Assembly (NCBI GenBank): GCA_017545485.1
Contig: JAFWMY010000011.1
Span: 1-64,000, forward strand
DNA length: 64,000 nt
Source of the DNA: Candidatus Saccharimonadota bacterium
Lineage (GTDB): Bacteria > Patescibacteriota > Saccharimonadia > Saccharimonadales > Saccharimonadaceae
Direction: 5' to 3'
This document shows, in pieces, positions 476 through 50,482 of this stretch. Positions within the stretch are counted from its first letter, which is position 1, and the number at the start of each line of letters is the position of its first letter. The notes below the pieces were generated by a model. It did not search any database, was not told where the DNA came from, and worked only from the letters and a program-made list of their open reading frames with translations. The translations under genes were made by a program, and so were the position numbers.

Positions 476-1639
476 TTATTTATTACCCTTCGCCCTGTTA
501 TGCGTCTTGCACAACATCTGGCAGTTTTCCTCTGTCGTGGCTCCGCCTTTACTCCAGGCGGAGACATGGTCAGCGTCCATCTCATTTAGTGCATAAATCT
601 TGTCTTTATTCGCTTCATGACCCACAGCGCAAAGCGGACAGTTTGAAATACCTTTTGCTTTCGCTTCCGCAGTTTGCTTGTTATAAACTCGGCGTTTCAC
701 CGCTTCGTCAAAAATCCGCACATCAAGTAACTTCGTATCTTTCTCGCCGCCAAGAATATATTCAAATATGCCTTTGTGATTCTTAATAAATGGATCGTCG
801 TAAAGTTCATGTACCTTTTCCGAAACCTTGCTAGGATTATAGGCGGTTTTATGATAATTATCATAAAGTCGCCCCCATTCCAGCCCACACATGTCGCTCG
901 TAAGGTCAATAAACACCGATGAAACCCAATCAATCACAGAAGTAAAATGCTTTTTCAGTTCGCTAATATCTGCATCTTTGCGATGGTTGCTCATATAATT
1001 ATCAATGTTTCCGCCCGATACCCAATCTAGCGCCGCTTTCAAGTAATCCTGGCGATTCACCGAACCAGCAATATACGCGCCCCATTTTTGAATATTTGCA
1101 TTCTGAGAATTACTAAACTCCTCCTTCGCAGCCGTTACAAACGGACCAGAATAAATCGCATTCAAAAGTTCCTGTTCATTAAGTGGAATCCCCACGATGT
1201 TGATAGTCTTGAACCAACTCTTGATTTCTTTTTCTTCGCCTTCGCAAATATAAATCGTCAGCGGATACTCCAAAATCTTCTTTTGGATTTCTTCATCCAA
1301 CCCAGAAAAATACTGTTCCATCCCATTTTGGTCTTTGACCGCAAATTTGTTTGTCACAAATCGCCCAAAACTCGTAATGCGTTGCTGACCGTCTAGAACT
1401 TCGTATTTGTCTTTACCGGCTTGGTTGAAATAAATCAAACCGAGCGGATAACCACTTAAAATCGATTCGATTACTGCCACATCACGCTTGCCGTCGGCAT
1501 AAATGTAGTTGCGCTGATATTCGGGCTGAATCGTGAGTTTGCCGGACAAGCCATAAAGGCCTCTACCTTCGAGTTCGTTATAAACAAATCCATCGCAGAT
1601 GTCTTTAATGGTGATGTCGGTTTTAAGAGTTGTTTTCAT
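476..1639 (-). CDS. DUF262-HNH nuclease (GmrSD/ParB-like N-terminus)
   Basis: A 387-residue two-domain protein. The N-terminal DUF262 (ParB/sulfiredoxin-like) domain shows the family motifs QPEYQR at 38-43 and DGQQR at 83-87, which in GmrS-type proteins bind or hydrolyse a nucleotide. The C-terminus is a zinc HNH nuclease: CPLC at 334-337, DADH with H358, and a second CxxxC (C373, C377) followed by H380-N381. The family includes type IV-like restriction enzymes and phage-defence nucleases that cut DNA. The start has an AAAGGAG site upstream. It overlaps the end of the methyltransferase gene by 4 bases, so the two are co-transcribed and probably act as one modification/restriction pair. Its true target (methylated or unmethylated DNA) cannot be read from sequence. 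Confidence 0.88.
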
Positions 1640-2826
1640 GGTTGCTCCTTTGCTTTTATAAATATTCTTGAAAAAGTTGAATGAACTATTTCACCAGTTT
1701 TTTCGTTCAAAAAATAATTGTTTTTCTCCTTTATGCCTGGCAAATTACCATTTCCGTTCGTTTTACTGCCAGAGGAACCAGTAGGTTTACCGGTTTTATA
1801 ATTTATCTCTTTATATTCTTCGTATGTTTTTAATTCTGGAACATTCTTGTGACAACCTCTTTGCGTGGCACCAATTATTTCAAATTGTTCTGGACAAAAC
1901 TTTTCTAGAAAAGTAATAGGCACCCCCATTAAGCCAGTGTAGTCTCTCGGGATTGCAGACGTATATGGAACCTCTATCGCATCGTAATTATCGTATTTTT
2001 GGTACTCCTTTCCCCTGATTTCACTATATTTACTATATCTAATATTTTCTTCCATCGTCATAAGTGGGATTGGTTTATGACGTCGCCCATGATCAATGTT
2101 TGTTATCCATATTGCAGCAACATTTTTATACTTTTTTCCATCTATTGTTTTATCATAATCATCAGATTCGCTGAATGTTTCAAACCACATTCCACCTTTC
2201 CAATCTTCTTTTCCAGACCATACGAGCTGATTCATAAAAAATGGGAAGACGTCTTTATTAGAAATGCTCGCCTTATTAATAATAAAAGCGAACTGTTTTT
2301 TACTTTCCATAATCCATGCAAAAAACTCCTTAAATAATGAAAATGGTGGATTTGTAATTATAATATCCGCCTCGTCGCGCAATTTTTTTATTTCAAGGCT
2401 TCTAAAATCGCCGTCACCTTTTAGATAATTCCATTCCAAATCATTGATATTGATTTTTTTATCTTTGTTTATATCTCGTTCAAGGATAAAAATCTTGCCA
2501 TGTGAGCGTGTTTTCTTTTTGTCATATTTTGGGCTATTCACTTCAAAAAGAGTTAATTGATAAGGGATATCATTTGGTTTACTATCGGCAGCATAACTCG
2601 TACTAATCAACTTTTTCAAGCCAAATCTCTCAAAGTTTTGAGCAAAATATTTAGTGAAATTGCTCCATTCTGGATCATCGCAAGGCAATAAGATAGTTTT
2701 ATCTTTAAATACATCAGGATTATAGTCAAGATAAGCATTCATTTCTCGTTCTATATCGCTAAACATAGTATAGAATTCATTATTCTTTTCGTTTTTTGCT
2801 TTGTGCATTTTTGAAACGCGTGGCAT
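1636..2826 (-). CDS. EcoRI-type adenine-specific DNA methyltransferase
   Basis: About 396 residues from the chosen start. It matches the EcoRI methylase family: an N-terminal HKAKN...EFYT...DIE stretch (about residues 7-26) and the catalytic NPPF motif at about 159-162 preceded by a run of isoleucines. It would transfer a methyl group from S-adenosylmethionine to adenine N6. The open frame extends 23 codons further upstream, but that extension is Cys/Arg-rich, falls in the palindromic control region, and lacks the family's N-terminus; the ATG at 2826 has an AGGAAAG site 8 bases before it and gives the MPRVSK start, so I chose it. It is the first gene of the pair with the DUF262-HNH nuclease, presumably protecting host DNA. 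Confidence 0.88.
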
Positions 2827-3076
2827 CTCTGTTGCTTTCCTACAACAGAAACGACATTGAACATCGCGCTGGGCACCACAACAAAAATCGGACATCGCAG
2901 CGGATGTCCAAATCTTTTACAACAGAGATACTCCGTGTGCTGCGGTGCCCGATTAATTCGGAGTATCGTCAGCAACAAGACTATCTCTGTGCTTCTGTTG
3001 TATATTATTAAAGATTTGGACTCTTTAATTATAACATAAAACACCGCCTTTTGTATTGTGCGATTCAACAGAGATA
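2825..3076. repeat. Cluster of inverted repeats in a divergent control region
   Basis: Between the methyltransferase and DUF3800 genes lie several nested palindromes. A 12-bp inverted repeat (2906-2917 with 3010-3021) encloses a second pair (2919-2925 with 2995-3001) and a 9-bp pair (2927-2935 with 2959-2967); just outside is a 7-bp hairpin with a 6-base loop (2890-2896 with 2903-2909). The decamer CAACAGAGAT occurs on the minus strand at 2825-2834, on the plus strand at 2920-2929 and 3066-3075, with a degenerate minus copy at 2982-3000. These could be operator sites, a structured RNA or a small foldback element. Confidence 0.7.
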
Positions 3077-3105: not shown

Positions 3106-3831
3106 ATGGAAAAATCAGAAATAAGAGTTTATCTTGATGAAACTAGGCATCTAAAAGTAAATGATGGCCCAATGGTACTAGGTGGTATTTGGGGGCCAAA
3201 AGATAATTGTATATCTTTCAACAAGAGAATTCAGATGATAAAAATACGGCATGGTATTCCTACAAACCAAGAATTAAAATGGACAAAAGTAAGTCCAGCA
3301 AAAATAGAGTATTATAAGGATGTTTTGATTTCCTTTCTGAATGAACCAAATATCAATTACCGTGGCGTAATAATTGACAAAAAATTAATAAATAATAAAC
3401 TTTATAACTTAACGGACGATGATTTTTATTACCGTATGCAATATTTGGTAATGCGAAATATAGCATCGCACAGAGTCGCAAAATATAGACTTTTCTTTGA
3501 TTACAAAGATACTTGGTCAAACCATAGAGCGAGTGGTACGGTTGATTATCTAAAAAAGACTAGCCGATTAGCCGGTAACGATTTTGAGTTTCAGCCTTTA
3601 CGCTCGGATGATGTAACATTACTACAGATTGCTGATTTTCTAAATGGATTATTTGCTTATGCTAATAGTAATTCAAGCCAACAAGTATCCGAAGCAAAAA
3701 AAGAACTAGTTAAACTATTAGAAGAAATATCTGGGGTTTGTCCAACATGTAATTCTCCGAGCGCAAGTGAAAAAATCAATATTTTAATATGGCAACCGAA
3801 AGTGACTTTTAAAAATGGATTGGCTTCCTGA
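3106..3831 (+). CDS. DUF3800 family protein
   Basis: A 241-residue protein of the DUF3800 family, which has an RNase H-like fold and is common in accessory and phage-related regions. Conserved acidic residues are visible: YLDE at 9-12, FDYKD around 131-135, and the signature LLQIADFLNG around 172-181 with D177. These acidic positions would coordinate metal ions if it is a nuclease, which has not been established for the family at large. A TATAAT hexamer ends 6 bases before the ATG, so the mRNA may be leaderless. It overlaps the following gene by 17 bases and is divergent from the methyltransferase gene, so the whole block may be one defence island. Confidence 0.82.
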   Translation: MEKSEIRVYLDETRHLKVNDGPMVLGGIWGPKDNCISFNKRIQMIKIRHGIPTNQELKWTKVSPAKIEYYKDVLISFLNEPNINYRGVIIDKKLINNKLYNLTDDDFYYRMQYLVMRNIASHRVAKYRLFFDYKDTWSNHRASGTVDYLKKTSRLAGNDFEFQPLRSDDVTLLQIADFLNGLFAYANSNSSQQVSEAKKELVKLLEEISGVCPTCNSPSASEKINILIWQPKVTFKNGLAS

Positions 3832-4312
3832 TGAACTCCAATTGGCATCTGGTAGTCTAGAAGAAGACTATAAAAAACTTTATAAAGTTTTTGAAAGCGA
3901 CTTTATTAAATCTAAAGTTTATTATAACGGTGAGAGAATAATATACCAAAAGGCAATAGATAATAAAACACCAGGTGGATATCCTTATGGTTTTACGCAT
4001 CTTATTACTAGGAAAAATGGCAATCAAAGAATAATTGACTATGATCGAGCGGTCAGATTACCATGGGTAAAAGCGGTGATAGAACATGCAGATGACCCCG
4101 CCGTAGTCATTTTGACCGCGAAAAGATACACTAAAAATAACGGATTAACTGATAACACATATCTTTGGCTAGAAGAAAAAAAGTTTCTTATTATTCTCTC
4201 ACGTATTAATCATGGTAAGAATCGTGGGCAAATGATTATAACTGCTTATACCATAACGGAAAACTACGTGGTAAAAAAACTCGAAGATATTCGCAGGAAA
4301 CTCTTAAATTAG
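3815..4312 (+). CDS. Possible BECR-fold RNase-like protein next to DUF3800
   Basis: A 165-residue protein. The central stretch has an order of motifs reminiscent of barnase/EndoU/colicin/RelE-like nuclease domains found in phage and toxin proteins: YGFTHLI (H62), a basic RxxW segment (R81, W84), a WLE motif near 118-120 and a TAY near 143-145 on the last strand. This assignment is by eye and weak. The gene starts inside the end of the DUF3800 gene and has no clear ribosome site of its own, which points to translational coupling and a joint function with DUF3800. No hydrophobic segment or signal peptide is present. Confidence 0.5.
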   Translation: MDWLPDELQLASGSLEEDYKKLYKVFESDFIKSKVYYNGERIIYQKAIDNKTPGGYPYGFTHLITRKNGNQRIIDYDRAVRLPWVKAVIEHADDPAVVILTAKRYTKNNGLTDNTYLWLEEKKFLIILSRINHGKNRGQMIITAYTITENYVVKKLEDIRRKLLN

Positions 4313-4542
4313 GCAATAAAGAAACGCCCAGGGGACGTCTCCATTGACTAATCATACACATGGTATGTCAGTGATTTAATTATATCATATTATTATATAA
4401 TAAGTCAATACATCTGTCAAAGTAGTTATGGCTAACAGGGGAGGTGGTTGTGGAAAACATAAGCAAAATAATCCGAAAAAGGTATTGACAAGTATTCCAC
4501 TGTTTATTAGTTGCGCTATGATTTTTGTGCTTCCGCTTCGTC

Positions 4543-4698
4543 CTTTCTGGCGGGGCGGGCGGGGGCGCCCCGCCAGAAAGTGATGGCTTTCGCGCCTTTC
4601 AGGGCCCTGCGGGCTTGGCGGGGGAAGCCCGCAGGGGCCCTGATCATGATGCTGGGGACTTTCGCGAGTTTGGCGGGGGGAAACTCGCGAAAGTCCCC
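4543..4698. repeat. Three GC-rich hairpins sharing one loop sequence
   Basis: Three long hairpins stand in tandem in an otherwise AT-rich intergenic region. Hairpin 1: 15-bp perfect stem, 4543-4557 with 4566-4580. Hairpin 2: 17-bp stem with one bulged G, 4600-4616 with 4625-4642. Hairpin 3: 18-bp perfect stem, 4654-4671 with 4681-4698. The three stems are unrelated in sequence but the loops are identical, GGCGGGGG (4558-4565, 4617-4624, 4672-4679, the last with one extra G). The stem of hairpin 1 holds a fourth GGCGGGG and the only exact complement, CCCCGCC at 4568-4574. None has a T-run after it, so these are not ordinary terminators. Confidence 0.9.
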
Positions 4699-4718
4699 CA
4701 CTTATTCGAGTTTTGTGG

Positions 4719-4798
4719 TATAATAGTTTCTAGCGGTGTTATATAAATGCACCATTATAGCAAAAAACTCAGGGTATTCGCGCTTAGGCGCATTTTTT
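4719..4798 (+). ncRNA. Possible short transcript: extended -10 promoter to terminator
   Basis: A TG-extended TATAAT (4719-4724) is followed about 55 bases later by a small hairpin, GCGC-TTAG-GCGC (4780-4791), and six Ts (4793-4798). Read literally this makes a transcript of about 65-70 bases starting just after the hairpin array. No reading frame of note is inside. It could be a small RNA or a leftover promoter; support is only the two signals. Confidence 0.35.
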
Positions 4799-4799
4799 A

Positions 4800-4828
4800 T
4801 TGACACGCATACTATTTTGTAGTATAAC
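4800..4828 (+). promoter_or_regulatory. Sigma-70 type promoter of the radical SAM operon
   Basis: A perfect TTGACA (4800-4805), a 17-base spacer and TATAAC (4823-4828). Transcription would begin near 4835, leaving a leader of about 75 bases before the maturase ATG. That leader carries a perfect 7-bp hairpin with a GTG loop (4853-4859 with 4863-4869) and an AAGGAGGG ribosome site at about 4899-4906. This is one of the best canonical promoters in the window. Confidence 0.8.
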
Positions 4829-4911
4829 AATGATAGTTTCGTATTCACAACGATTCTCCGTGGGAGAATTTTATTTTGCCCAAGTACATTAATAGCAAGG
4901 AGGGATAAGCA

Positions 4912-6222
4912 ATGGCTAAATTCTCATACTACAATTTTTTGGTCGAGAACCCAGATGGTGGTTATATTCTCTTCAACAGCTTAACAAAGAACATCATTTT
5001 AATGACGGCTGATGATAGAGAATGGATGGGGGCTGTTGACCTTAAAAATGTAGACGAAGGTGATGAGCGTTTCCAAACTCTTGCAGAGCTTAATTTCATC
5101 GTAGATGATGACTTTGATGAGCTGGAGTATTACAGATTGGAATGGTTTCGAAGCCTGTATTCATCTGGTATTCTACGTCATACTGTGATTCTAAATCTAG
5201 CGTGTAATTGCGATTGCCCGTATTGTTTTGAAAACAAGAACGGTCAATTTATGACCAAGGAGACAGCGGACGCATATTTGAAGTGGCTTGAACCTCAGGT
5301 CAAAGATATTAAATATTTCTGGATGAGTTGGTTCGGCGGGGAACCGCTACTTTCTAAGCAAATGATTGAATATCTTACTGACGGGATATTGAAGCTAGCT
5401 GAGAAGTACCATTTTGAATACGCCGCCTGCGTTGTTACGAATGGAGTACTGGCTGATGCTGACTTTGTCTCAAAGTGCGAGCGGCTGCATATTGCAAATC
5501 TGCAGGTCACTATTGATGGCGAACGAGAGACCCATAATAAATACCGTTTCTTGAAAGCAAATCATGGTGGAACTTTTGACACAATTTTGTCAAATCTGGC
5601 TGACTTTTGCACGCGCGTTCATTCAGACACAGCGAGTATACTTAGAGTTAACCTAACAGATGAGAATTATCCAACCATACCTCAGCTTTTGGATGAGATT
5701 CCAGACGTAGTGAGAGAAAACTGCGTGTTACTTCTTAGGTGGGTTTATTCCCATGTAGAAGGACGCAGCCCAGGCGTTGAGTTCTCAGCTGGAAAGAAAG
5801 GCACACGACCTTATGATAATCTAGCTCCGTTATATGAACTAGCACAGGCAAAAGGATTCACACCAAATTCTTTTGACGAAGGACCAAGTTGTAATTTCTG
5901 TGAGTGCGACTTTGATCATGCTTTTCAAATCAATTACGATGGAGACCTTTTTATGTGCACGCATAGCATGGACAAGTCTGAAGTAATTGGGAATGTCTAC
6001 GAAGGGTTCCGCACCCAAGGTAACCTCACAAGATATGCCAAATTCGTCAATACTAATCCTTTTGGTGATCAGGAATGTCTTGATTGTAAATTACTTCCTA
6101 TCTGCAAAGGTGGGTGCCGTAAAGCTCGCTACCTCGGACATAAAGTCTGCTCAGATGTGAAGTACAGCTACGAGCCGTATATTATTGAGAAGGCCAAAAA
6201 GGCCACTCTTGAAAATCAATAG
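4912..6222 (+). CDS. Radical SAM/SPASM peptide maturase
   Basis: A 436-residue radical SAM enzyme. The cluster-binding motif CX3CX2C is C98, C102, C105, and the SAM-contacting GGEP is at 142-145. A C-terminal SPASM region with cysteines at 327, 330, 332, 349, 389, 392, 398, 402 and 413 would bind one or two auxiliary iron-sulfur clusters. The first 90 residues are the typical substrate-side domain of such maturases. Enzymes of this layout use a 5'-deoxyadenosyl radical to install crosslinks or other changes in ribosomally made peptides. It has its own strong promoter and ribosome site. Seventeen bases downstream starts a 48-residue Cys-containing peptide gene, then a terminator, so the operon is maturase plus likely substrate. 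No exporter, protease or separate recognition protein is adjacent. Confidence 0.92.
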   Translation: MAKFSYYNFLVENPDGGYILFNSLTKNIILMTADDREWMGAVDLKNVDEGDERFQTLAELNFIVDDDFDELEYYRLEWFRSLYSSGILRHTVILNLACNCDCPYCFENKNGQFMTKETADAYLKWLEPQVKDIKYFWMSWFGGEPLLSKQMIEYLTDGILKLAEKYHFEYAACVVTNGVLADADFVSKCERLHIANLQVTIDGERETHNKYRFLKANHGGTFDTILSNLADFCTRVHSDTASILRVNLTDENYPTIPQLLDEIPDVVRENCVLLLRWVYSHVEGRSPGVEFSAGKKGTRPYDNLAPLYELAQAKGFTPNSFDEGPSCNFCECDFDHAFQINYDGDLFMCTHSMDKSEVIGNVYEGFRTQGNLTRYAKFVNTNPFGDQECLDCKLLPICKGGCRKARYLGHKVCSDVKYSYEPYIIEKAKKATLENQ

Positions 6223-6239
6223 CAAAAGGAGGTGAGTGT

Positions 6240-6386
6240 ATGAAAGCTATTAAGAAAAACGTCAACCGTGAGGACCTGGTTAACCAGAAAAACACGAGAG
6301 AAGAACGTTTGAACAACGGCCAATCTATCACTAAAGCAATTATAATGAATGGAAAGGCTTGTTGTGGCGGCGCTTACGTCAAGTAA
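6240..6386 (+). CDS. Candidate RiPP precursor peptide, 48 residues
   Basis: A short frame directly after the maturase gene, with an excellent AGGAGGTGA ribosome site. The first 35 or so residues are charged and polar (a leader-like MKAIKKNVNREDL start), and the last dozen form a distinct end, NGKACCGGAYVK, with two adjacent cysteines, two glycines and a tyrosine. A terminator begins 20 bases after the stop. Position, size and the Cys-rich tail fit a substrate of the radical SAM/SPASM enzyme; the tail vaguely recalls the IDGMCGVY-like end of mycofactocin precursors, but no MftB-like partner is present. The product and modification are unknown. I cannot place it in a named family. Confidence 0.75.
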   Translation: MKAIKKNVNREDLVNQKNTREERLNNGQSITKAIIMNGKACCGGAYVK

Positions 6387-6406
6387 GCAGTAACTTATCT
6401 CTATCC

Positions 6407-6437
6407 AAAAAGAGTCGCTTTATTAGCGGCTCTTTTT
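6407..6437. terminator. Bidirectional terminator
   Basis: A 12-bp stem beginning with five As and ending with five Ts around a 7-base loop. It sits between the plus-strand peptide gene and the convergent phosphorylase gene and would stop transcription from both sides. Confidence 0.9.
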
Positions 6438-6441
6438 CCTT

Positions 6442-7176
6442 TTAGATTTTGTTTAGGATTTCTAGTGCAACGTCAATTATTTCCTCATTGCGACGGGGGA
6501 GAGGTGCTTTCTCGCTATTCACGACCGGGTCTTCGCCGATTAGAAACTCAGTAAATTTGATATTTCGATACTTTGCAAGCGCGAGTAGAGCAGACAATTC
6601 CATGTCTACCCCTATGCAACCACGTTCTTGCATCAACTTAACCTTGCCTTCAGTCTCGCGATAAACAGCATCAGTAGTCCAAATTTTACCTTTTTCGTAT
6701 TCAAATTTATGCTCTTTGAAGACTTGTTCGGCAATGTTTAATGCATCTTCATCTATACCAATTTCATCTTCATCTGGAAGATAGTGATAGCTAGTACCTT
6801 CCTCGCGATAGGCGGAGGTCGGGAGAATAATAGTGTTTTGCGCGATGTCTGAACTGAGGCGGCCGCAAGTGCCAAAAGCAACGATCTTGTTAATACCACT
6901 AGCAATGATGAGCTCGGTATCGCAGACGCATCCAGCGGAGCCCATGGTTGGATAAACTAAAAGAATTTTTTCGCCATTTGTTTCAACATAACGATAAGTA
7001 TCAAAAACTCTGCCAAAAGCATTAGTGACAGGGAATGTTTCTATGTCTTTATTTGGTAAAACATAATCTTCCCAAATCTCATCATCAAAAATTAGCACAC
7101 ATTTGGTTGGTTTAGATTCTAGCTTTAGGTCGCTTGGACTAAAAACTGTTTTTCGTTCTGGGTCATATTTAATCAT
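6442..7176 (-). CDS. Nucleoside phosphorylase (PNP/UDP family)
   Basis: A 244-residue enzyme of the PNP_UDP_1 family, which splits nucleosides with phosphate to a free base and (deoxy)ribose-1-phosphate. The glycine-rich TMGSAG near residue 75, the FGTCGR segment that contacts phosphate, and the VDMELSALLALA stretch near 197 that holds the ribose-binding Met-Glu pair are visible, closest in style to uridine phosphorylases. It would supply ribose-1-phosphate to the pentose route encoded later in the window. A TATAAT hexamer lies exactly 6 bases before the ATG on the minus strand, predicting a leaderless mRNA. The exact base specificity is not readable. Confidence 0.85.
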   Translation of the reverse strand: MIKYDPERKTVFSPSDLKLESKPTKCVLIFDDEIWEDYVLPNKDIETFPVTNAFGRVFDTYRYVETNGEKILLVYPTMGSAGCVCDTELIIASGINKIVAFGTCGRLSSDIAQNTIILPTSAYREEGTSYHYLPDEDEIGIDEDALNIAEQVFKEHKFEYEKGKIWTTDAVYRETEGKVKLMQERGCIGVDMELSALLALAKYRNIKFTEFLIGEDPVVNSEKAPLPRRNEEIIDVALEILNKI

Positions 7177-7241
7177 GGTGCTATTATATCATAAGATTAT
7201 TTCTATTATTATATTTAAGGTGTTTTTGATATAATAGGGTT

Positions 7242-8018
7242 ATGAATAAATTGGGATTCATTAGATTTAAGACTATTCTGATAAATCTTTTTGTCGTTGC
7301 GATTGTGGTGGGGATTGGGTTTCTTGGCTATACGTGGGTTAAGGAAAAGAAACTTTTTATAAACGAGTGGTTTCTTGGCGAAGGGCTGCGCGGAGTAGAC
7401 ATTTCTAGCTACCAAGCTGACGTTGATATGAAAAGCTTGGCAAATCAAGGCATCAGATTTGTCTATATGAAAGCGACTGAAGGTAGTAACCATGTTGACG
7501 AAAAGTTTGCTACGAACTGGAAGAACATAAAGGACACCAACATGGCGGCTGGAGCATACCATTTTTTCTCGTATGAGAGCAGTGGGGAAACGCAGGCAGA
7601 AAATTATGTCTCTACAGTAGGGTCTTTGAATGGCCATTTAATCCCGGCAGTAGACGTAGAAATGTATGGCGAGTTTAAAGAGAACCCGCCTGAAAAAGAT
7701 AAAGTTGTACGCCAATTAAAAATATTCATGGCAGTGATGGAAGATGAATACAAAGCTAAACCAATAATTTACGCACAAAAAGATATATATGATAAATATT
7801 TAAAGGACGATTTCAAAGATTACCCAGTGTGGGCGCGCAATGTATATTTTCCGGTATATTTGGAGTTTGGTGGAGATTGGCTAATTTGGCAATACAAGGA
7901 TCGTGGCGAATTGGAAGGCTATAAAGGCGGAGAAAAATATATAGATTTAGACGTCTTGAATCCGGGAAAAAGTTTAGATGAATTAATGGTAAAAAATGCT
8001 AAGGATAGCGATAAATAA
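7242..8018 (+). CDS. Membrane-anchored GH25 family muramidase
   Basis: A 258-residue protein with one N-terminal membrane anchor (about residues 10-31) and a glycoside hydrolase family 25 domain. The opening RGVDISSYQ (D53), KATEG (E80) and PAVDVE (D138, E140) are the acidic active-site strands of this lysozyme family, which cuts the beta-1,4 bond between N-acetylmuramic acid and N-acetylglucosamine. It would act outside the membrane on the cell's own wall or on a host cell wall. A TATAAT hexamer is 6 bases before the ATG (leaderless). It ends 4 bases from the convergent cation transporter gene. Confidence 0.9.
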   Translation: MNKLGFIRFKTILINLFVVAIVVGIGFLGYTWVKEKKLFINEWFLGEGLRGVDISSYQADVDMKSLANQGIRFVYMKATEGSNHVDEKFATNWKNIKDTNMAAGAYHFFSYESSGETQAENYVSTVGSLNGHLIPAVDVEMYGEFKENPPEKDKVVRQLKIFMAVMEDEYKAKPIIYAQKDIYDKYLKDDFKDYPVWARNVYFPVYLEFGGDWLIWQYKDRGELEGYKGGEKYIDLDVLNPGKSLDELMVKNAKDSDK

Positions 8019-8022
8019 AGAG

Positions 8023-9135
8023 TTAGTCGTTAGCATCTATATCTAATGTAATATGAACTTTATAGTCTTTGTACTTTTCTTGTATTTCTTCGTAAATATG
8101 TTTACACAAAGAATCTCTGTCTTCAACTGCAAAATCAATAATAATATCACAGCTGATGGTTTTATCTTCTTCGTCATAATAAAAACCGTGCATTTCAAGC
8201 ACGCCTTGGTGGGAGAAAATAATATCTTTAATGTCGTTTTGGATTTTCGTAATCGCTTTATCTTTGGTGTTAACGGAATAAACGCCGATAGTGTGGAGAA
8301 TGACGCCATATTTCTGGAGAATATTCTTGGTAATGCGACGAGAGATTTTATCAACTTCAGACACGGTTAGGGTGTCTGGAACTTCTATATGGATGGAGCC
8401 TAAATATTTATCTGGGCCGTAGTCATATAAAACTAAATCAAAGGCCCCCTGAACATTTTCCTCTTTAGCTACTTCTTTTTTGATTTTGCGGGAGAGCGAA
8501 CTTTCTACCCTTACACCTACAATATTATTTACAGATTTTCTGATTAAGTCTATGCCAGTTTTAATGATGAAAAGGGAAACGAGAACGCCGACGTAAGCCT
8601 CAAGGCTAATTCCTGACAATAAATAAATAACGGCCGAAGCTAAGACGGAGATTGAGAGAATTGCGTCATTAAATGCATCTGTGCCGCTAGCGACAAGAGA
8701 ATCTGAATGGATTCTCTTTCCAGTCTTTTTGACGTATAACCCAAGGGCAAATTTGACGACTATACCAGCGATAAGAATTATGAGTGTGATAGTGCTGTAG
8801 TCTGGAGTTTCTGGTTGAATGATTTTTTTAACAGATTCTACAAGAGCAGTGATACCGGCATATAAAACAATCGCTGAGACTGTTAAGGAAGTCATGTATT
8901 CTAATCTACCATAACCGTAAGGGTGCTTTTTGTCTGGTGCCTTGCCAGCAAGTTTGGTACCAATAATGGTGATAATACTAGACAAAGCATCGCTTAAGTT
9001 GTTAATTGCGTCAGAGATAATGGCAATGGAATTTGAGAGAAACCCAACAAAAGCCTTAAACCCCACTAAAACCAAGTTTGCTACTATGCTAAGAAGGCTG
9101 ATTTTAACTACGGTATTCTCGCGTGATTTTTTCAT
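8023..9135 (-). CDS. Cation diffusion facilitator transporter
   Basis: A 370-residue CDF family transporter. The first metal-site helix reads SDAINNLSDAL (D42, D49) and a second, TDAFND, is near residue 153; several hydrophobic segments fill the first 200 residues. This family exports Zn, Mn, Fe or similar divalent ions in exchange for protons. The protein has a long cytoplasmic C-terminal region (about residues 205-370) that is roughly twice the usual 80-90 residues and looks like two consecutive cytoplasmic domains. A TATAAT hexamer is 6 bases before the ATG on the minus strand. The metal cannot be predicted with confidence. Confidence 0.9.
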   Translation of the reverse strand: MKKSRENTVVKISLLSIVANLVLVGFKAFVGFLSNSIAIISDAINNLSDALSSIITIIGTKLAGKAPDKKHPYGYGRLEYMTSLTVSAIVLYAGITALVESVKKIIQPETPDYSTITLIILIAGIVVKFALGLYVKKTGKRIHSDSLVASGTDAFNDAILSISVLASAVIYLLSGISLEAYVGVLVSLFIIKTGIDLIRKSVNNIVGVRVESSLSRKIKKEVAKEENVQGAFDLVLYDYGPDKYLGSIHIEVPDTLTVSEVDKISRRITKNILQKYGVILHTIGVYSVNTKDKAITKIQNDIKDIIFSHQGVLEMHGFYYDEEDKTISCDIIIDFAVEDRDSLCKHIYEEIQEKYKDYKVHITLDIDAND

Positions 9136-9205
9136 GAGGTTATTATAACATTAAAGAACATAATATTGTAATCTTGCGATGCTTTACTTTTGCATAAAAC
9201 AGGCA

Positions 9206-9239
9206 TATAATTAAGTATGAAAAGTATAACTGGTTATAC
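9206..9239 (+). promoter_or_regulatory. Promoter and palindromic operator of the AbrB-ABC cassette
   Basis: TATAAT (9206-9211) with a TTTACT 17 bases upstream, followed by a perfect 7-bp palindrome, GTATAAC-TG-GTTATAC (9224-9239), placed just after the expected start of transcription. A site there is well placed for repression, most simply by the AbrB-type protein encoded 16 bases downstream. Confidence 0.65.
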
Positions 9240-9254
9240 CTTAAGGAAGCATGT

Positions 9255-9455
9255 ATGAAAGATAAATTTATAGGTATTGCTAAAGTTGGAGAAAAAGGGC
9301 AGATAGTTATTCCAAAAGAGGCAAGAGATATGTTTGATATTAAATCAGGCGATTCTATTATAGTACTTTGTGATAAAGAAAAAGGAATTGCTTTGTTAAA
9401 AGCAGATGCAATTGAAGATTTGTCTGATAAAGTATTTCCAAAAGGAGATAATTAA
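9255..9455 (+). CDS. AbrB/SpoVT/MazE-type DNA-binding protein
   Basis: A 66-residue swapped-hairpin AbrB-like transcription factor. The core VGEKGQIVIPKEARDMFDIKSGD pattern is characteristic (given here only in part: GQIVIPKEAR near 15-24, IKSGD near 30-34). It precedes an ABC transporter ATPase by 2 bases, an arrangement seen in clostridial AbrB-ABC-2 cassettes. It likely controls its own operon through the palindrome upstream. A second ATG lies 4 bases before in another frame; the AAGGAAG site fits the chosen start. Confidence 0.85.
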   Translation: MKDKFIGIAKVGEKGQIVIPKEARDMFDIKSGDSIIVLCDKEKGIALLKADAIEDLSDKVFPKGDN

Positions 9456-9457
9456 TA

Positions 9458-10180
9458 ATGATTGCAATTGAAACAAAGAAGTTAACAAAAAAATTTAAAG
9501 ATAAAGTAGCTGTGAATGAAATAGATTTAAAAATTAAGCATGGTGAATTATTTGCACTTTTAGGAGTAAATGGTGCTGGCAAAACGACTACGATTAAAAT
9601 GTTGTCCGGTCTGATTCTCCCAACTTCTGGTGAGATAATAATAGAAAATATGAACATGAAAAAAGAAGTATTTAAAATAAAAGAAATTTTAAATGTATCA
9701 CCACAAGAAACCGCTATTGCACCAAATTTAACAGTAAAAGAAAATTTAGAATTTATGGCTGGAGTTTATCAAATAAAAGATAAAGAAAAAAAGATTAATG
9801 AACTTGTTAAGGAGTTTAAGCTTGAAGATGTGTTAAACAAAAGAGCAAAAACTTTATCAGGTGGTTGGCAAAGAAGAGTATCTATAGCAATAAGTTTAAT
9901 AAATAATCCAAAGATATTATTTTTAGACGAGCCAACACTGGGGTTAGATGTGATAGCAAGAAAAGAGCTATGGAAAGTTATTAATTCATTAAAAGGTAGA
10001 ATAACAATTATTTTGACAACCCATTATATGGAGGAAGCAGAAAGTTTATCAGACAGAATTGGTATAATGGCAAATGGCAGTATTGTTGAAGTTGGAACCG
10101 CTAAAGAATTAATCAAAAAAACTAAAGCTAAAAATTTTGAAGACGCTTTTGTATCGATCGCAACTGGAGGTGAGCTATAA
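9458..10180 (+). CDS. ABC transporter ATP-binding protein
   Basis: A 240-residue ATPase with Walker A GVNGAGKT at 36-43, signature LSGGW at 133-137 and Walker B ILFLDEPT at 153-160, followed by the switch histidine in TTHYMEEAE. It belongs to the ABC-2/DrrA-like group that works with a six-helix permease to export lipids, drugs or peptides. The next gene overlaps its stop by one base and encodes the permease. Base composition of this gene and its neighbours is clearly more AT-rich than the rest of the window (AAA, ATA, TTA codons dominate), which suggests acquisition from a low-GC Firmicute-like donor. Confidence 0.93.
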   Translation: MIAIETKKLTKKFKDKVAVNEIDLKIKHGELFALLGVNGAGKTTTIKMLSGLILPTSGEIIIENMNMKKEVFKIKEILNVSPQETAIAPNLTVKENLEFMAGVYQIKDKEKKINELVKEFKLEDVLNKRAKTLSGGWQRRVSIAISLINNPKILFLDEPTLGLDVIARKELWKVINSLKGRITIILTTHYMEEAESLSDRIGIMANGSIVEVGTAKELIKKTKAKNFEDAFVSIATGGEL

Positions 10181-10911
10181 TGAGAATGATTAATTTTGCT
10201 AAAAGAAATTTTAAGGAATTAATTAGAGATCCTTTAAGTTTAATATTTGAAATCGTTTTACCATTATTCTTATTATTTATCTTTCAACAATTTGATATTC
10301 CGGCAGAGAATTATAAATTAGAAAATTTTACTCCTTCCATTATATTATTTGGGTTTTCATTTATCACATTGTTTACTGCTACATTGATTGCAAAGGATAG
10401 AACATCTTCATTTTTAATTAGACTTGGAACTTCTCCAATGAAATCAAGTGATTATATATTGGGATATATACTATCATTGCTGCCAATAGTATTAATTCAG
10501 AATATTTTATTCTTTTTAACTGCTATTATGATGGGATTAGAATTTAGTATAAGTATAATACCGACTATATTAGTATCTATGATTATTTCTATATTCTTTA
10601 TATCACTTGGAATATTAATAGGTAGTTTAGTTAGTGAAAAAGGAACTGGTGGTTTAGGAAGTATCGTTGTCCAATTGGTATGCTTTACGAGTGGTATGTA
10701 TTTTCCTAAAGAAGTAATTGGTGGAGTTTTTGAAGTAATATGCAAAGCATTGCCATTTGAAGCTTGTTTAAATATAATTCAAGGTACATTACATAATGAT
10801 TTTAGTAATTTAACACTTATCCATATAATAGTATTTTTAATCTATTTTATAGCAGTTATATTATTCTCAATTATTGTATTCAAAAAAAGAATGATTAGTG
10901 ATAATAAATAA
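10180..10911 (+). CDS. ABC-2 type permease
   Basis: A 243-residue protein with about six hydrophobic segments, starting with a short basic N-terminus (MRMINFAKRNFKEL) that is typical of ABC-2 permeases, then the RDPLSLIFEIVLP segment leading into helix 1. It pairs with the ATPase gene whose stop codon it overlaps. The substrate is unknown; self-resistance or bacteriocin/drug export is common for this type. AT-rich like its two upstream partners. No terminator is obvious before the next gene, which has its own promoter. Confidence 0.9.
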   Translation: MRMINFAKRNFKELIRDPLSLIFEIVLPLFLLFIFQQFDIPAENYKLENFTPSIILFGFSFITLFTATLIAKDRTSSFLIRLGTSPMKSSDYILGYILSLLPIVLIQNILFFLTAIMMGLEFSISIIPTILVSMIISIFFISLGILIGSLVSEKGTGGLGSIVVQLVCFTSGMYFPKEVIGGVFEVICKALPFEACLNIIQGTLHNDFSNLTLIHIIVFLIYFIAVILFSIIVFKKRMISDNK

Positions 10912-10944
10912 TCGGAAGATTAAGATATTAGGTACAATATATAT

Positions 10945-11652
10945 ATGTCCACAATCCAAAAATATAACGAATTAAAGACTGCGTTGGCGCGGAATGCGGA
11001 TGATGAATACCGCGAGTTCAGCATGAAGGGAATCCCGAGTGAAAGACCATTCGTTGGAGTTAGAATTCCAAAAATCCGCGAAATTGTAGCTATGGTGCCA
11101 AATGATAAAATTAATGATTTTTTGGCAGAAGAGCCTGTGGCAATTGAAGAAGTGCTGGCACGCGGAATGCTAATTTCGCGACTGTCTTATGATGATGTAC
11201 TGGGTGCTAAGGCGGTAATATTTGATTCGCAGATTAGTTATATTGATAATTGGTGCACATGTGACGTGTTTTGTTCGGGGCTGAAGAAGCTAGTTAGAGG
11301 ACACCGCGACGAAGTACTTGAGCAAAGAATTGACCCCCTTTTAGAAAGTGGAGCGGAATTTGCGGTCAGAGTTGGGTTGGTATTATTAAAATGCTACTAC
11401 GTAGATTATGATTATCTTGCAGTAATTTTTGATCGCGTGGAAAAACTAAAAGACCGCAAGGAATATTATATTAAAATGGCAATTGCGTGGCTTGTTGCTG
11501 AGTGTTTTATAAAATACCCAGAAGAAACTTTGGCATATTTAAAAATATCACATTTGCCAAAATGGACATATAATAAAACCATTTCTAAGATTTGTGATTC
11601 ATACCGGGTGGAACCGGAAGTAAAAGAAGTATTAAAGAAAATGAGGAAATAA
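10945..11652 (+). CDS. AlkD-like DNA alkylation repair protein
   Basis: A 235-residue all-helical protein of the DNA alkylation repair (AlkD, HEAT-like) family. The [24 protein letters not shown] region opens the fold (in part: GVRIPKIRE near 37-45), and the [13 protein letters not shown] segment near 109-121 plus the WLVAECF helix near 173-179 are the usual family signatures. Such proteins excise positively charged alkylated bases by handling the DNA backbone. A TACAAT hexamer lies 6 bases before the ATG, so it may be leaderless. DUF1653 follows 1 base after its stop. Confidence 0.85.
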
Positions 11653-11653
11653 C

Positions 11654-11887
11654 ATGAAAAGAGAATTAGTTATACATGGCGTGTACAGACATTTCAAGGG
11701 ATATTTATATATTGTGGAAGACGTGGCAATAAATTCAGAAACGGACGAAAATTTAGTAATTTATCGTGCATTATATGGAGAGGGGTTGCTGTATGCAAGG
11801 CCCCTAAAGATGTTTCTTAGTCCTGTTGATACTAAAAAATATCCTGACGTAAAACAAAAATGGCGATTTGAATTAGTGGATAAATAA
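11654..11887 (+). CDS. DUF1653 protein
   Basis: A 77-residue protein matching the DUF1653 pattern: [12 protein letters not shown] near the start, a [15 protein letters not shown] middle and an [11 protein letters not shown] segment ending in a Phe-rich tail. The fold is a small beta barrel of unknown function, often found near repair or tRNA genes. Only one base separates it from the AlkD-like gene, so the two are read together. Confidence 0.85.
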
Positions 11888-11924
11888 TTGTTATAATAGT
11901 ATTAATAAAAAGCGGAGGAAGCTA

Positions 11925-12494
11925 GTGAAAATTGAATACTTAGGACATGCATGTTTTAGACTAGACGATGAGCTGGTGATTGACCCATATAAAGACGGCT
12001 CTGTGCCAGGGCTTCCACCTTTGCGTGTGAAAGCGACGAAGGTAATTTGTACGCATGAACACGCCGATCATAGTGGCAGAGAATGTGTAGAAATTGTGCC
12101 CGGCGAATGTGAGTTTGATATTAAAGAAGTGCCAAGTTTTCATGATGATGCCGGAGGAGCTCTGCGTGGGCCTAATACTATTTTCGTTATTACTTCTACA
12201 ACTGGAGAAAAACTAGTACATTTAGGAGATTTGGGGCATTTTCCGAATGAGGAACAATTAAAAGCTATTTCTGGCGCAGACTATTTACTAATACCTGTAG
12301 GAGGGTATTATACAATTGATGCAGAAATGGCAATAAAAATCTGCAAAGCTGCAGAGCCAAAACATATAATCCCGATGCATTATCGTACAGAAAAGTCAGG
12401 CTACCTAGAACTCGCGACGGTGGAAGAGTTTTTAAAATTAGCTGAAGAAAATAATATGAATAATAATATTTTCAACCCTGATACAATCGTATAA
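11925..12494 (+). CDS. Metallo-beta-lactamase fold hydrolase
   Basis: A 189-residue MBL-fold protein starting at GTG with a GCGGAGG ribosome site. The first residues KIEYLGHACF and the metal motif THEHADHS (HxHxDH, near 42-49) are as in the UPF0173/UlaG-like group of metal-dependent hydrolases; a further His in VHLGDLGH near 105 and the PMHYRT near 151 complete the site. The natural substrate of these short proteins is not known. A TATAAT at 11891-11896 is a plausible promoter. Confidence 0.85.
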   Translation: MKIEYLGHACFRLDDELVIDPYKDGSVPGLPPLRVKATKVICTHEHADHSGRECVEIVPGECEFDIKEVPSFHDDAGGALRGPNTIFVITSTTGEKLVHLGDLGHFPNEEQLKAISGADYLLIPVGGYYTIDAEMAIKICKAAEPKHIIPMHYRTEKSGYLELATVEEFLKLAEENNMNNNIFNPDTIV

Positions 12495-49864: not shown

Positions 49865-50482
49865 ATGTTTCTTGATATTCCTGATAAGAACTTACATGTA
49901 AACTGTAGTTTAATAGAATACCAATACTTCAAGGACTATGAAGACCGGAGATTATTTCTTGACAGCGAAATTGAAGCAAATGGTGATGGGTCAATTGCAG
50001 AGCTAAAAGAGCGAATCATGAATTATAATCGTGATGATAAAGGCATTAAGCCTAAAGAGCGCAAGCCAATCCTGCTTTTTATCAATTCACCTGGCGGAGA
50101 TGTGCAGGAAGGATTCTCTTTAGTGTCATTTATGTCGCTAAGTAAAACTCCAATTTATACAGTAAACATTGGACTTTGGGCTTCAATGTCGTTCTTGATT
50201 GGTATTGCGGGACATAAAAGGTTCTCATTACCAAATATGACATTTCTGATGCACGATGGACTGTCTGTTGCGTGGGGTTCTACTAGCAAAGTGCAAGACC
50301 AAATTGAATTTAGCAAACGCTACGATTCAGAAGTGGTTAAAAAGCATGTCCTCCAGCATAGCACCATGAAAGAATGCGATTACGATGCACTCTCCAGGGT
50401 TGAATTATATATGTTACCGAAAGATGCTTTGGAACATGGTTTTATCGACGAGATAATAACCGATATAGACACTATCCTTTAA
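49865..50482 (+). CDS. Divergent ClpP-like serine protease
   Basis: About 205 residues. The ClpP fold is shown by FINSPGGDVQEGFSL near 73-87, the nucleophile region GLWASMSF (Ser about 107) and the His in LMHDG (about 130). In the place of the third catalytic residue, where ClpP has Asp before the FMxAxEAxEYGLID end, this protein has Glu (RVELYMLPKDALEHGFID in part). It also lacks the usual QLLFL start and has a charged insert (GDGSIAELKERIMNYNRDDKG in part). It may be a ClpP2-like partner or an altered-activity homologue. The AAAGGAGG site favours this ATG over a GTG 9 bases earlier. Confidence 0.82.
   Translation: MFLDIPDKNLHVNCSLIEYQYFKDYEDRRLFLDSEIEANGDGSIAELKERIMNYNRDDKGIKPKERKPILLFINSPGGDVQEGFSLVSFMSLSKTPIYTVNIGLWASMSFLIGIAGHKRFSLPNMTFLMHDGLSVAWGSTSKVQDQIEFSKRYDSEVVKKHVLQHSTMKECDYDALSRVELYMLPKDALEHGFIDEIITDIDTIL

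Follow-up and report, generated by a model that had tools for sequence, protein, structure and literature searches.

The window (the whole 64,000-nucleotide stretch of Candidatus Saccharimonadota DNA analyzed here) carries a restriction enzyme and methylase pair, a DUF3800 gene with its PDC-M04B partner, three long hairpins, a predicted attachment half-site and a radical-SAM (RiPP) operon, with the Radical_SAM domain assigned to 4912–6222 (Table 1). Near the PDC-M04B gene, the minus strand of 4420–4320 holds a perfect TTGACA-N17-TATAAT promoter with GACGTCCCCTGGGCGTTTCTTT ∼70 nt further on; this region recurs behind related ORFs in L009, L013, L015, L018, L020 and L024 and may possibly give rise to a small RNA.

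Table 1. Features of the window around the hairpin array
Feature	Position	Strand	Basis or remark
Cargo: GmrSD/HNH restriction enzyme (476–1639) and EcoRI-type methylase (1636–2895)	476–2895	-	type II pair
Cargo: DUF3800 protein (PADLOC PDC-M04A; 3106–3831) and PDC-M04B (3815–4312)	3106–4312	+	
Right terminal arm (B arm): three hairpins and attachment half-site	4505–4754	+	left limit approximate
Hairpin 1	4543–4580	+	15/15 bp; loop GGCGGGGG at 4558–4565
Hairpin 2	4599–4643	+	18 bp with one bulged G; loop GGCGGGGG at 4617–4624
Hairpin 3	4654–4698	+	18/18 bp; nine-base loop GGCGGGGGG at 4672–4680
TATAAT, conserved as TAnAAAT beside the half-site	4719–4724	+	alignment of relatives
Predicted attP half-site (P half) TTCTAGCGGTGTTATATAAATGCACCA, kept in attR	4728–4754	+	pattern search, covarying internal dyad, family consensus
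CACCA, putative exchange core, common to the tRNA-Leu(TAG) 3′ end	4750–4754	+	core 5-mer comparison
Right flank of the insertion, including tRNA terminator (4780–4798)	4749–4800	+	follows tRNA-Leu(TAG) in relative G039
Radical-SAM (RiPP) operon promoter TTGACA-17-TATAAC	4800–4828	+	read directly; outside the element

The initial annotation described the hairpins as sharing one identical loop, and this is so for hairpins 1 and 2, but the loop of hairpin 3 has one extra G. The fourth GGCGGGG that it reported is present at 4549–4555, with the complement at 4568–4574, both within hairpin 1. GGCGGGG occurs 13 times in the window versus 2.7 expected, a count reached in none of 100 shuffles, and the fold of 4530–4730 (−117.2 kcal/mol, z = −7.2) is matched in strength by none of 200 shuffles. 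Across the 885-kb genome, loops of this type in such hairpins are found at 4543–4698 only, the remaining four GGCGGGGG sites being one terminator stem and three sites without such a hairpin. An assembly artefact, which had been considered a danger in this stretch, can be set aside: the block 4505–4754 is conserved in many independently assembled congeners, and in a DNA search of the genus the rightward matches stop at ∼4754–4760. A G-quadruplex, also envisaged, finds no support, each hairpin having a single G tract.

Comparison with relatives makes it very probable that a large serine recombinase (LSR) has placed an integrative element at the 3′ end of tRNA-Leu(TAG) and that the three hairpins form the right terminal arm of that element, a judgement that concerns what the feature is and is separate from the role of the loops. 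The initial annotation had seen the conserved loop with free stems but overlooked the end of an integrated element. A relative without the insertion (G039) is collinear with contig C6 of the same genome as far as tRNA-Leu(TAG), where it switches at GCACCA to the equivalent of window 4749–4800 (locus L053 10636–10687; 90.6% match) and then continues with window 11904–12385 and beyond. Elsewhere, the sequence beyond 4749 lies directly behind an intact tRNA-Leu gene. On C6, tRNA-Leu(TAG) (49998–50082) is followed by a T segment and then by an LSR gene that reads toward the tRNA and is cut by the end of the contig; its product is 61–63% identical to P0002 and matches the Recombinase and Zn-ribbon domains (the latter just under the Pfam cut-off), with full-length relatives additionally having a Resolvase domain. 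The order on C6 and the switch in G039 thus point to the end of C6 and the start of the window flanking an insertion at tRNA-Leu(TAG), and from this synteny we infer that C6 and C23 flank one insertion. As assembled, the left end of this copy (tRNA, attL, T arm and LSR) would lie on C6 and the right B arm in the window, with a gap between them and the left B arm unassembled. Three tyrosine integrases (PF00589) are encoded in the genome, on C2, C14 and C24; none of them lies in the assembled parts of the element (i.e., outside the remaining gap), which makes a tyrosine integrase a less likely mover. The 3.3-kb contig C24 of G000 (L088), with its tyrosine integrase and an azoreductase-like gene, looks foreign and may be a contaminant, and C2 (L087) has a region whose ORFs, which include a tyrosine recombinase and a portal-like protein, suggest that it is prophage-like.

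The same junction bears on the RiPP operon, directly ahead of which the hairpins had been placed. By position this is correct, but the attachment site, the tRNA terminator and the operon's own promoter intervene, and a link between hairpins and operon is unsupported, the hairpins being the element's right arm and the operon having its own promoter. That the hairpins form a leader or riboswitch for the operon, or an RNA associated with the DUF3800 gene, is therefore very improbable. They do lie upstream of 4912, and the presence of a DUF3800 gene at 3106–3831 goes with a match to the Rfam model DUF3800-IV over hairpin 3; however, the operon promoter lies beyond attR and the insertion junction contradicts the RiPP link, the Rfam match is weak and below threshold (25.8 bits against a cut-off of 60.7; E = 0.066) over a hairpin that draws a miRNA model too, and the hairpins are present in elements where no DUF3800 gene was seen (e.g., L049). 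Window 4801–11900, which holds the operon, is extra relative to G039, where the sequence runs from the tRNA terminator to an MBL-fold gene; it is perhaps an older, possibly tandem, insertion.

Complete relatives in other genera have the order tRNA, T1-LSR-T2′, B1′-cargo-B2, flank, with both modules bounded by inverted arms (median identity 100%). Across 35 LSR loci, the tRNA 3′ end faces the LSR C-terminus in 30 and the reverse is never seen (no tRNA was called in five), with 13 amino acids represented among the target tRNAs. T arms were found in 27 of these loci (56–174 bp, 89–100% identity, 15 exactly 100%) and B arms in 16 (132–251 bp, 94–100% identity, 12 exactly 100%). The complete elements measured span 3.2 to 10.3 kb, and the LSR module, at ∼1.8 kb, has room for one LSR gene. 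Within the window's own genus, L038, L049 and L091 are without an LSR and retain only T1-T2′ remnants beside the tRNA, and further copies are reduced to single arms. Two identical inverted attP sites should permit both orientations of the LSR; all oriented cases run one way, which speaks against free flipping of the LSR module, and one possible cause is selection against an LSR gene driven from the tRNA. Two variants of the layout were also seen: L050 contains at 9284–11925 a second unit within inverted arms (225 bp, 92%) that carries a reverse transcriptase-like protein (RVT_1), and deletions in the right arms of L041, L046 and L048 have left a fused hairpin, its left side from hairpin 1 and its right side from hairpin 3, with the common loop sequence as the joint.

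The attachment sites can be read from the same comparison. In all 20 elements where both are readable, the P half ends in the same 5-mer as the target tRNA, namely CACCA (11), TACCA (4, with Arg/Met), CTCCA (3, with Lys/Thr) and AGCCA (2, with Gln). The P-half consensus is AAAATaGGTTCtaGC-n-GTAaAa-n-CCA, and the half-site end pattern occurs in 20 of 174 congeners with no control matches. In nearly all target tRNAs, GGTTC begins 25 nt before the end; in the readable P halves this distance is almost always 29 nt, the exceptions being L211 and L216, with changed motifs, and L215, which is cut short. The LSR would thus read the T-loop sequence GGTTC, 25 nt (attB) or 29 nt (attP) from the end, and would probably exchange strands within NNCCA at the tRNA end. 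In known LSR sites, the zinc-domain motifs are 5 bp closer to the center in attB than in attP (PMC3783163), whereas the shift in the present family is 4 bp, hence an analogy rather than a demonstration. Some more distant Patescibacteria elements have GTTCGAA-like P halves, with a spacing that varies by a few bases. The internal dyad of the half-site is paired in 86.4% of cells, with two-sided changes in three of five pairs and some G-U pairs, and the adjoining TATAAT looks promoter-like and is perhaps part of the attachment site.

The proposal that the loop is kept while the stems are free holds true well beyond the window, in the genus as well as in other genera of the family. In the genus, the hairpins lie at fixed distances from the CACCA end (54–59 nt for hairpin 3, 107–114 nt for hairpin 2 and 168–177 nt for hairpin 1, with hairpin 1 homologues at the last position in L045, L050, L051 and L052), and in the single-arm copy L038 the first hairpin occupies the hairpin-2 position. 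The loops of hairpins 2 and 3 are almost invariant across the genus; hairpin 2 is paired in 92.7% of cells, with two-sided changes in 8 of 19 pairs (covariation 0.434 versus 0.201 shuffled), and hairpin 3 in 91.7%, with 9 of 18 such pairs (0.449 versus 0.185). Slid controls are far lower, and the shuffles overstate significance because the aligned sequences are related. Few one-sided G-U changes were seen in hairpin 3 or the inner stretch of hairpin 2, and this scarcity leans, tentatively, toward pairing at the level of DNA.

In other genera of the family, the GGCGGGGG motif again occupies an open loop while the stems are quite different, and an alternative form, GGTCGGGGG, occurs in tight hairpins. 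CGGCGGG-G is invariant in 13 aligned hairpins with differing stems, for which RNAalifold gives 13 pairs, seven of them with two-sided changes, with almost no net covariation energy. GGCGGG[AG]G or GGTCGGGGG is present on the B strand of 18 of 24 B arms and on the opposite strand of none, compared with 1.15 expected by chance and a maximum of 6 in 500 resamples. Within these arms, the motif has an unpaired probability of 0.78 (RNA) or 0.81 (DNA) versus 0.23 and 0.32 for other Gs, a part of this openness being trivial because a run of five Gs has few partners. Some arms (L159, L206, L211, L219 and L225) lack the G-rich motif or have only a weak form of it, and in some the tract is in the C orientation; distant elements have G- or C-run loops in several arms, not all. 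The T arms have a hairpin of their own, with the loop GTGCGGGGGT or AAAGGGGG, that is paired in 96.7% of cells with two-sided changes in 5 of 18 pairs; GTGCGGGGGT occurs in 19 copies in 13 genomes, and the copies whose surroundings were read adjoin an attachment site.

With a conserved loop and free stems recurring beyond the window, recognition of the single-stranded loop, as first suggested, is a fair reading of the hairpins. A kissing interaction, likewise suggested there, is possible between loops, because those of inverted arm copies are complementary by construction. Recognition of the loops as single-stranded DNA during transfer or integration is the most likely of the roles considered, although we give it somewhat less than even weight. 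The LSR would move the element, and the hairpins would keep the G-rich motif (GGCGGGGG and its variants) exposed in a loop of single-stranded DNA to either side of the attachment site, acting when the element is single-stranded or extruded (i.e., in natural-competence uptake, transfer or synapsis). The loop could be a protein-binding or priming signal, or the starter of pairing between the two inverted arms, by which one strand would form a double-stranded attP within itself, and selection would act on the loop and on pairing, leaving the stem sequence free. Saccharibacteria are naturally competent and take up DNA (PMC10633639), and single-stranded entry is therefore plausible. A more far-reaching version, in which the element is single-stranded while it travels or recombines and folds its own double-stranded attP for a serine recombinase, with the loops as nucleation, protein-binding or priming signals, seems improbable to us at present. 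In such a folded strand, B-NNCCA-T would pair with T′-TGGNN-B′, since the two attP regions are near-perfect inverted copies.

Two other roles for the hairpins, each of which we regard as unlikely, have to be weighed against recognition of the loops in single-stranded DNA. In the first, the hairpins would act in RNA or as insulators, that is, as structured transcript ends or as barriers that stop transcription of the cargo or the tRNA from passing the attachment site; this concerns the role of the loops and leaves the identity of the element untouched. The strong RNA fold (z = −7.2), the −10-like TATAAT and the tRNA terminator on either side of the half-site and some G-U pairs in the internal dyad of the P half are in its favor. 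However, the stems have no T tract after them and a terminator scan finds no terminator at 4543–4698, neither the arm nor any of seven related loci gives an Rfam match at the gathering score of the family, almost all changes in the stems are double and only a few cells are G-U, and the same hairpins can occur, inverted, on both arms of an element. In the second, hairpins and arms would be a by-product of foldback or template switching, with self-templated synthesis keeping arms and stems perfect and the G-rich loop being its leftover or start. Arms that are up to 100% identical over 94–251 bp within an element while differing between elements, stem changes that are mostly double-sided and the above deletions through the loop shared by hairpins 1 and 3 are consistent with such synthesis, which leaves unexplained, however, why the motif is retained on one strand (18 versus 0) and why its distances from the core are fixed within the genus; moreover, ordinary gene conversion could equally keep the arms alike. 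As to foldback copying from a GGCGGGG priming site, which the initial annotation had put forward, nothing shows it, although the near-identical inverted arms leave room for a copying step.

Hairpins with unpaired signal bases that are read in single-stranded DNA are known from integron attC sites, the attP of CTX phage and ssi/sso origins. These are work-alikes only, with other enzymes and no sequence relation to the present hairpins, for which single-strand use would be an analogous trait. A direct kinship, with the hairpins as REP/BIME-like or IS200/IS605-like structures read by a Y1 HUH transposase or as integron attC-type sites, is extremely improbable: conserved unpaired bases in hairpins at the element ends and a cassette-like variable cargo would fit it, but there is no Y1_Tnp (PF01797) gene in the organism's own genome (controls were positive in 5 of 14 genomes), copies are confined to element ends rather than dispersed, and the linked enzyme is an LSR instead of the IntI-type tyrosine recombinase that accompanies attC in integrons. 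An integron-like cassette array and a CCA-ended RNA were likewise dropped once C6 showed an LSR beside attL and complete elements had been seen.

LSR islands offer the closer comparison, since the present elements have an LSR with Resolvase, Recombinase and Zn-ribbon domains (in full-length relatives), site-specific insertion and a core common to attP and attB; we class the element among them, with recombinase activity on these sites as a prediction. The SCCmec/ECC islands, with their CcrAB LSRs, are alike in being LSR-driven islands at a conserved gene 3′ end, with inverted repeats in the att sites, very variable cargo and compound islands (PMC6222049). They differ in their target, rlmH (orfX) rather than tRNA genes, and in using paired CcrA and CcrB rather than one LSR, and, unlike them, the present elements are ∼3–10 kb long and have long, near-identical, hairpin-bearing inverted arms around two modules. 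The Dehalococcoides ssrA islands (DsiB, a CcrB-like LSR) also have the LSR gene beside attL at the 3′ part of an RNA gene, form tandem islands and keep the integration module separate from the cargo, but they use only tmRNA and have a 20-bp direct repeat, a crossover in the T-loop region and a six-gene module (PMC3146451); the paper describing them mentions neither "inverted" nor "hairpin" (PMC3146451). Tyrosine-integrase tRNA islands (Islander) similarly leave the tRNA 3′ end intact and have a short copy of this end at their boundary; they use tyrosine integrases, whereas the enzyme linked to the present element is an LSR. As of 2014, serine integrases were not known at tRNA genes, a survey knowing only tyrosine integrases there (PMC4383910), and our searches of a limited literature collection listed no paper describing elements such as these, which is not proof of absence.

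The LSR clade is present in 17 of 61 genera in a sample of the family and in 71 of 313 Patescibacteria genera sampled; of 20 loci opened from the phylum sample, most show T arms and a nearest tRNA of like orientation, and B arms are present in several. Neither the LSR clade, searched in phages, plasmids and viral contigs, nor the B-core and loop patterns, searched in viral contigs, were found there, and a phage or plasmid origin was set aside. Matches to the B-core pattern in Verrucomicrobiota, Leptospiraceae and others are, by our estimate, about as many as expected by chance for a pattern of this length. The restriction enzyme and methylase pair of the window recurs in other elements, and cargo elsewhere includes type II restriction-modification with Shedu SduA, MMPL, YcaO-nitroreductase, reverse transcriptase and tRNA synthetase genes.

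The genomes of Patescibacteria are small, and few mobile elements particular to them have been described. The element near the start of the window appears, from sequence comparison, to belong to a phylum-wide family whose members insert at the 3′ ends of many different tRNA genes and bring small cargo with them, restriction-modification, Shedu-like and YcaO genes among it. A core that follows the tRNA end (NNCCA), together with an outer motif that matches the T-loop, would account for the many tRNA targets of a single enzyme family. With two sets of inverted arms that are nearly identical and a G-rich loop that is conserved, these elements raise the question of movement as folded single strands; if true, this would be a folded-strand counterpart of the integron attC for a serine recombinase, across a phylum of naturally competent epibionts. 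In bacteria that are difficult to manipulate, the LSR enzymes might also find use as tools.
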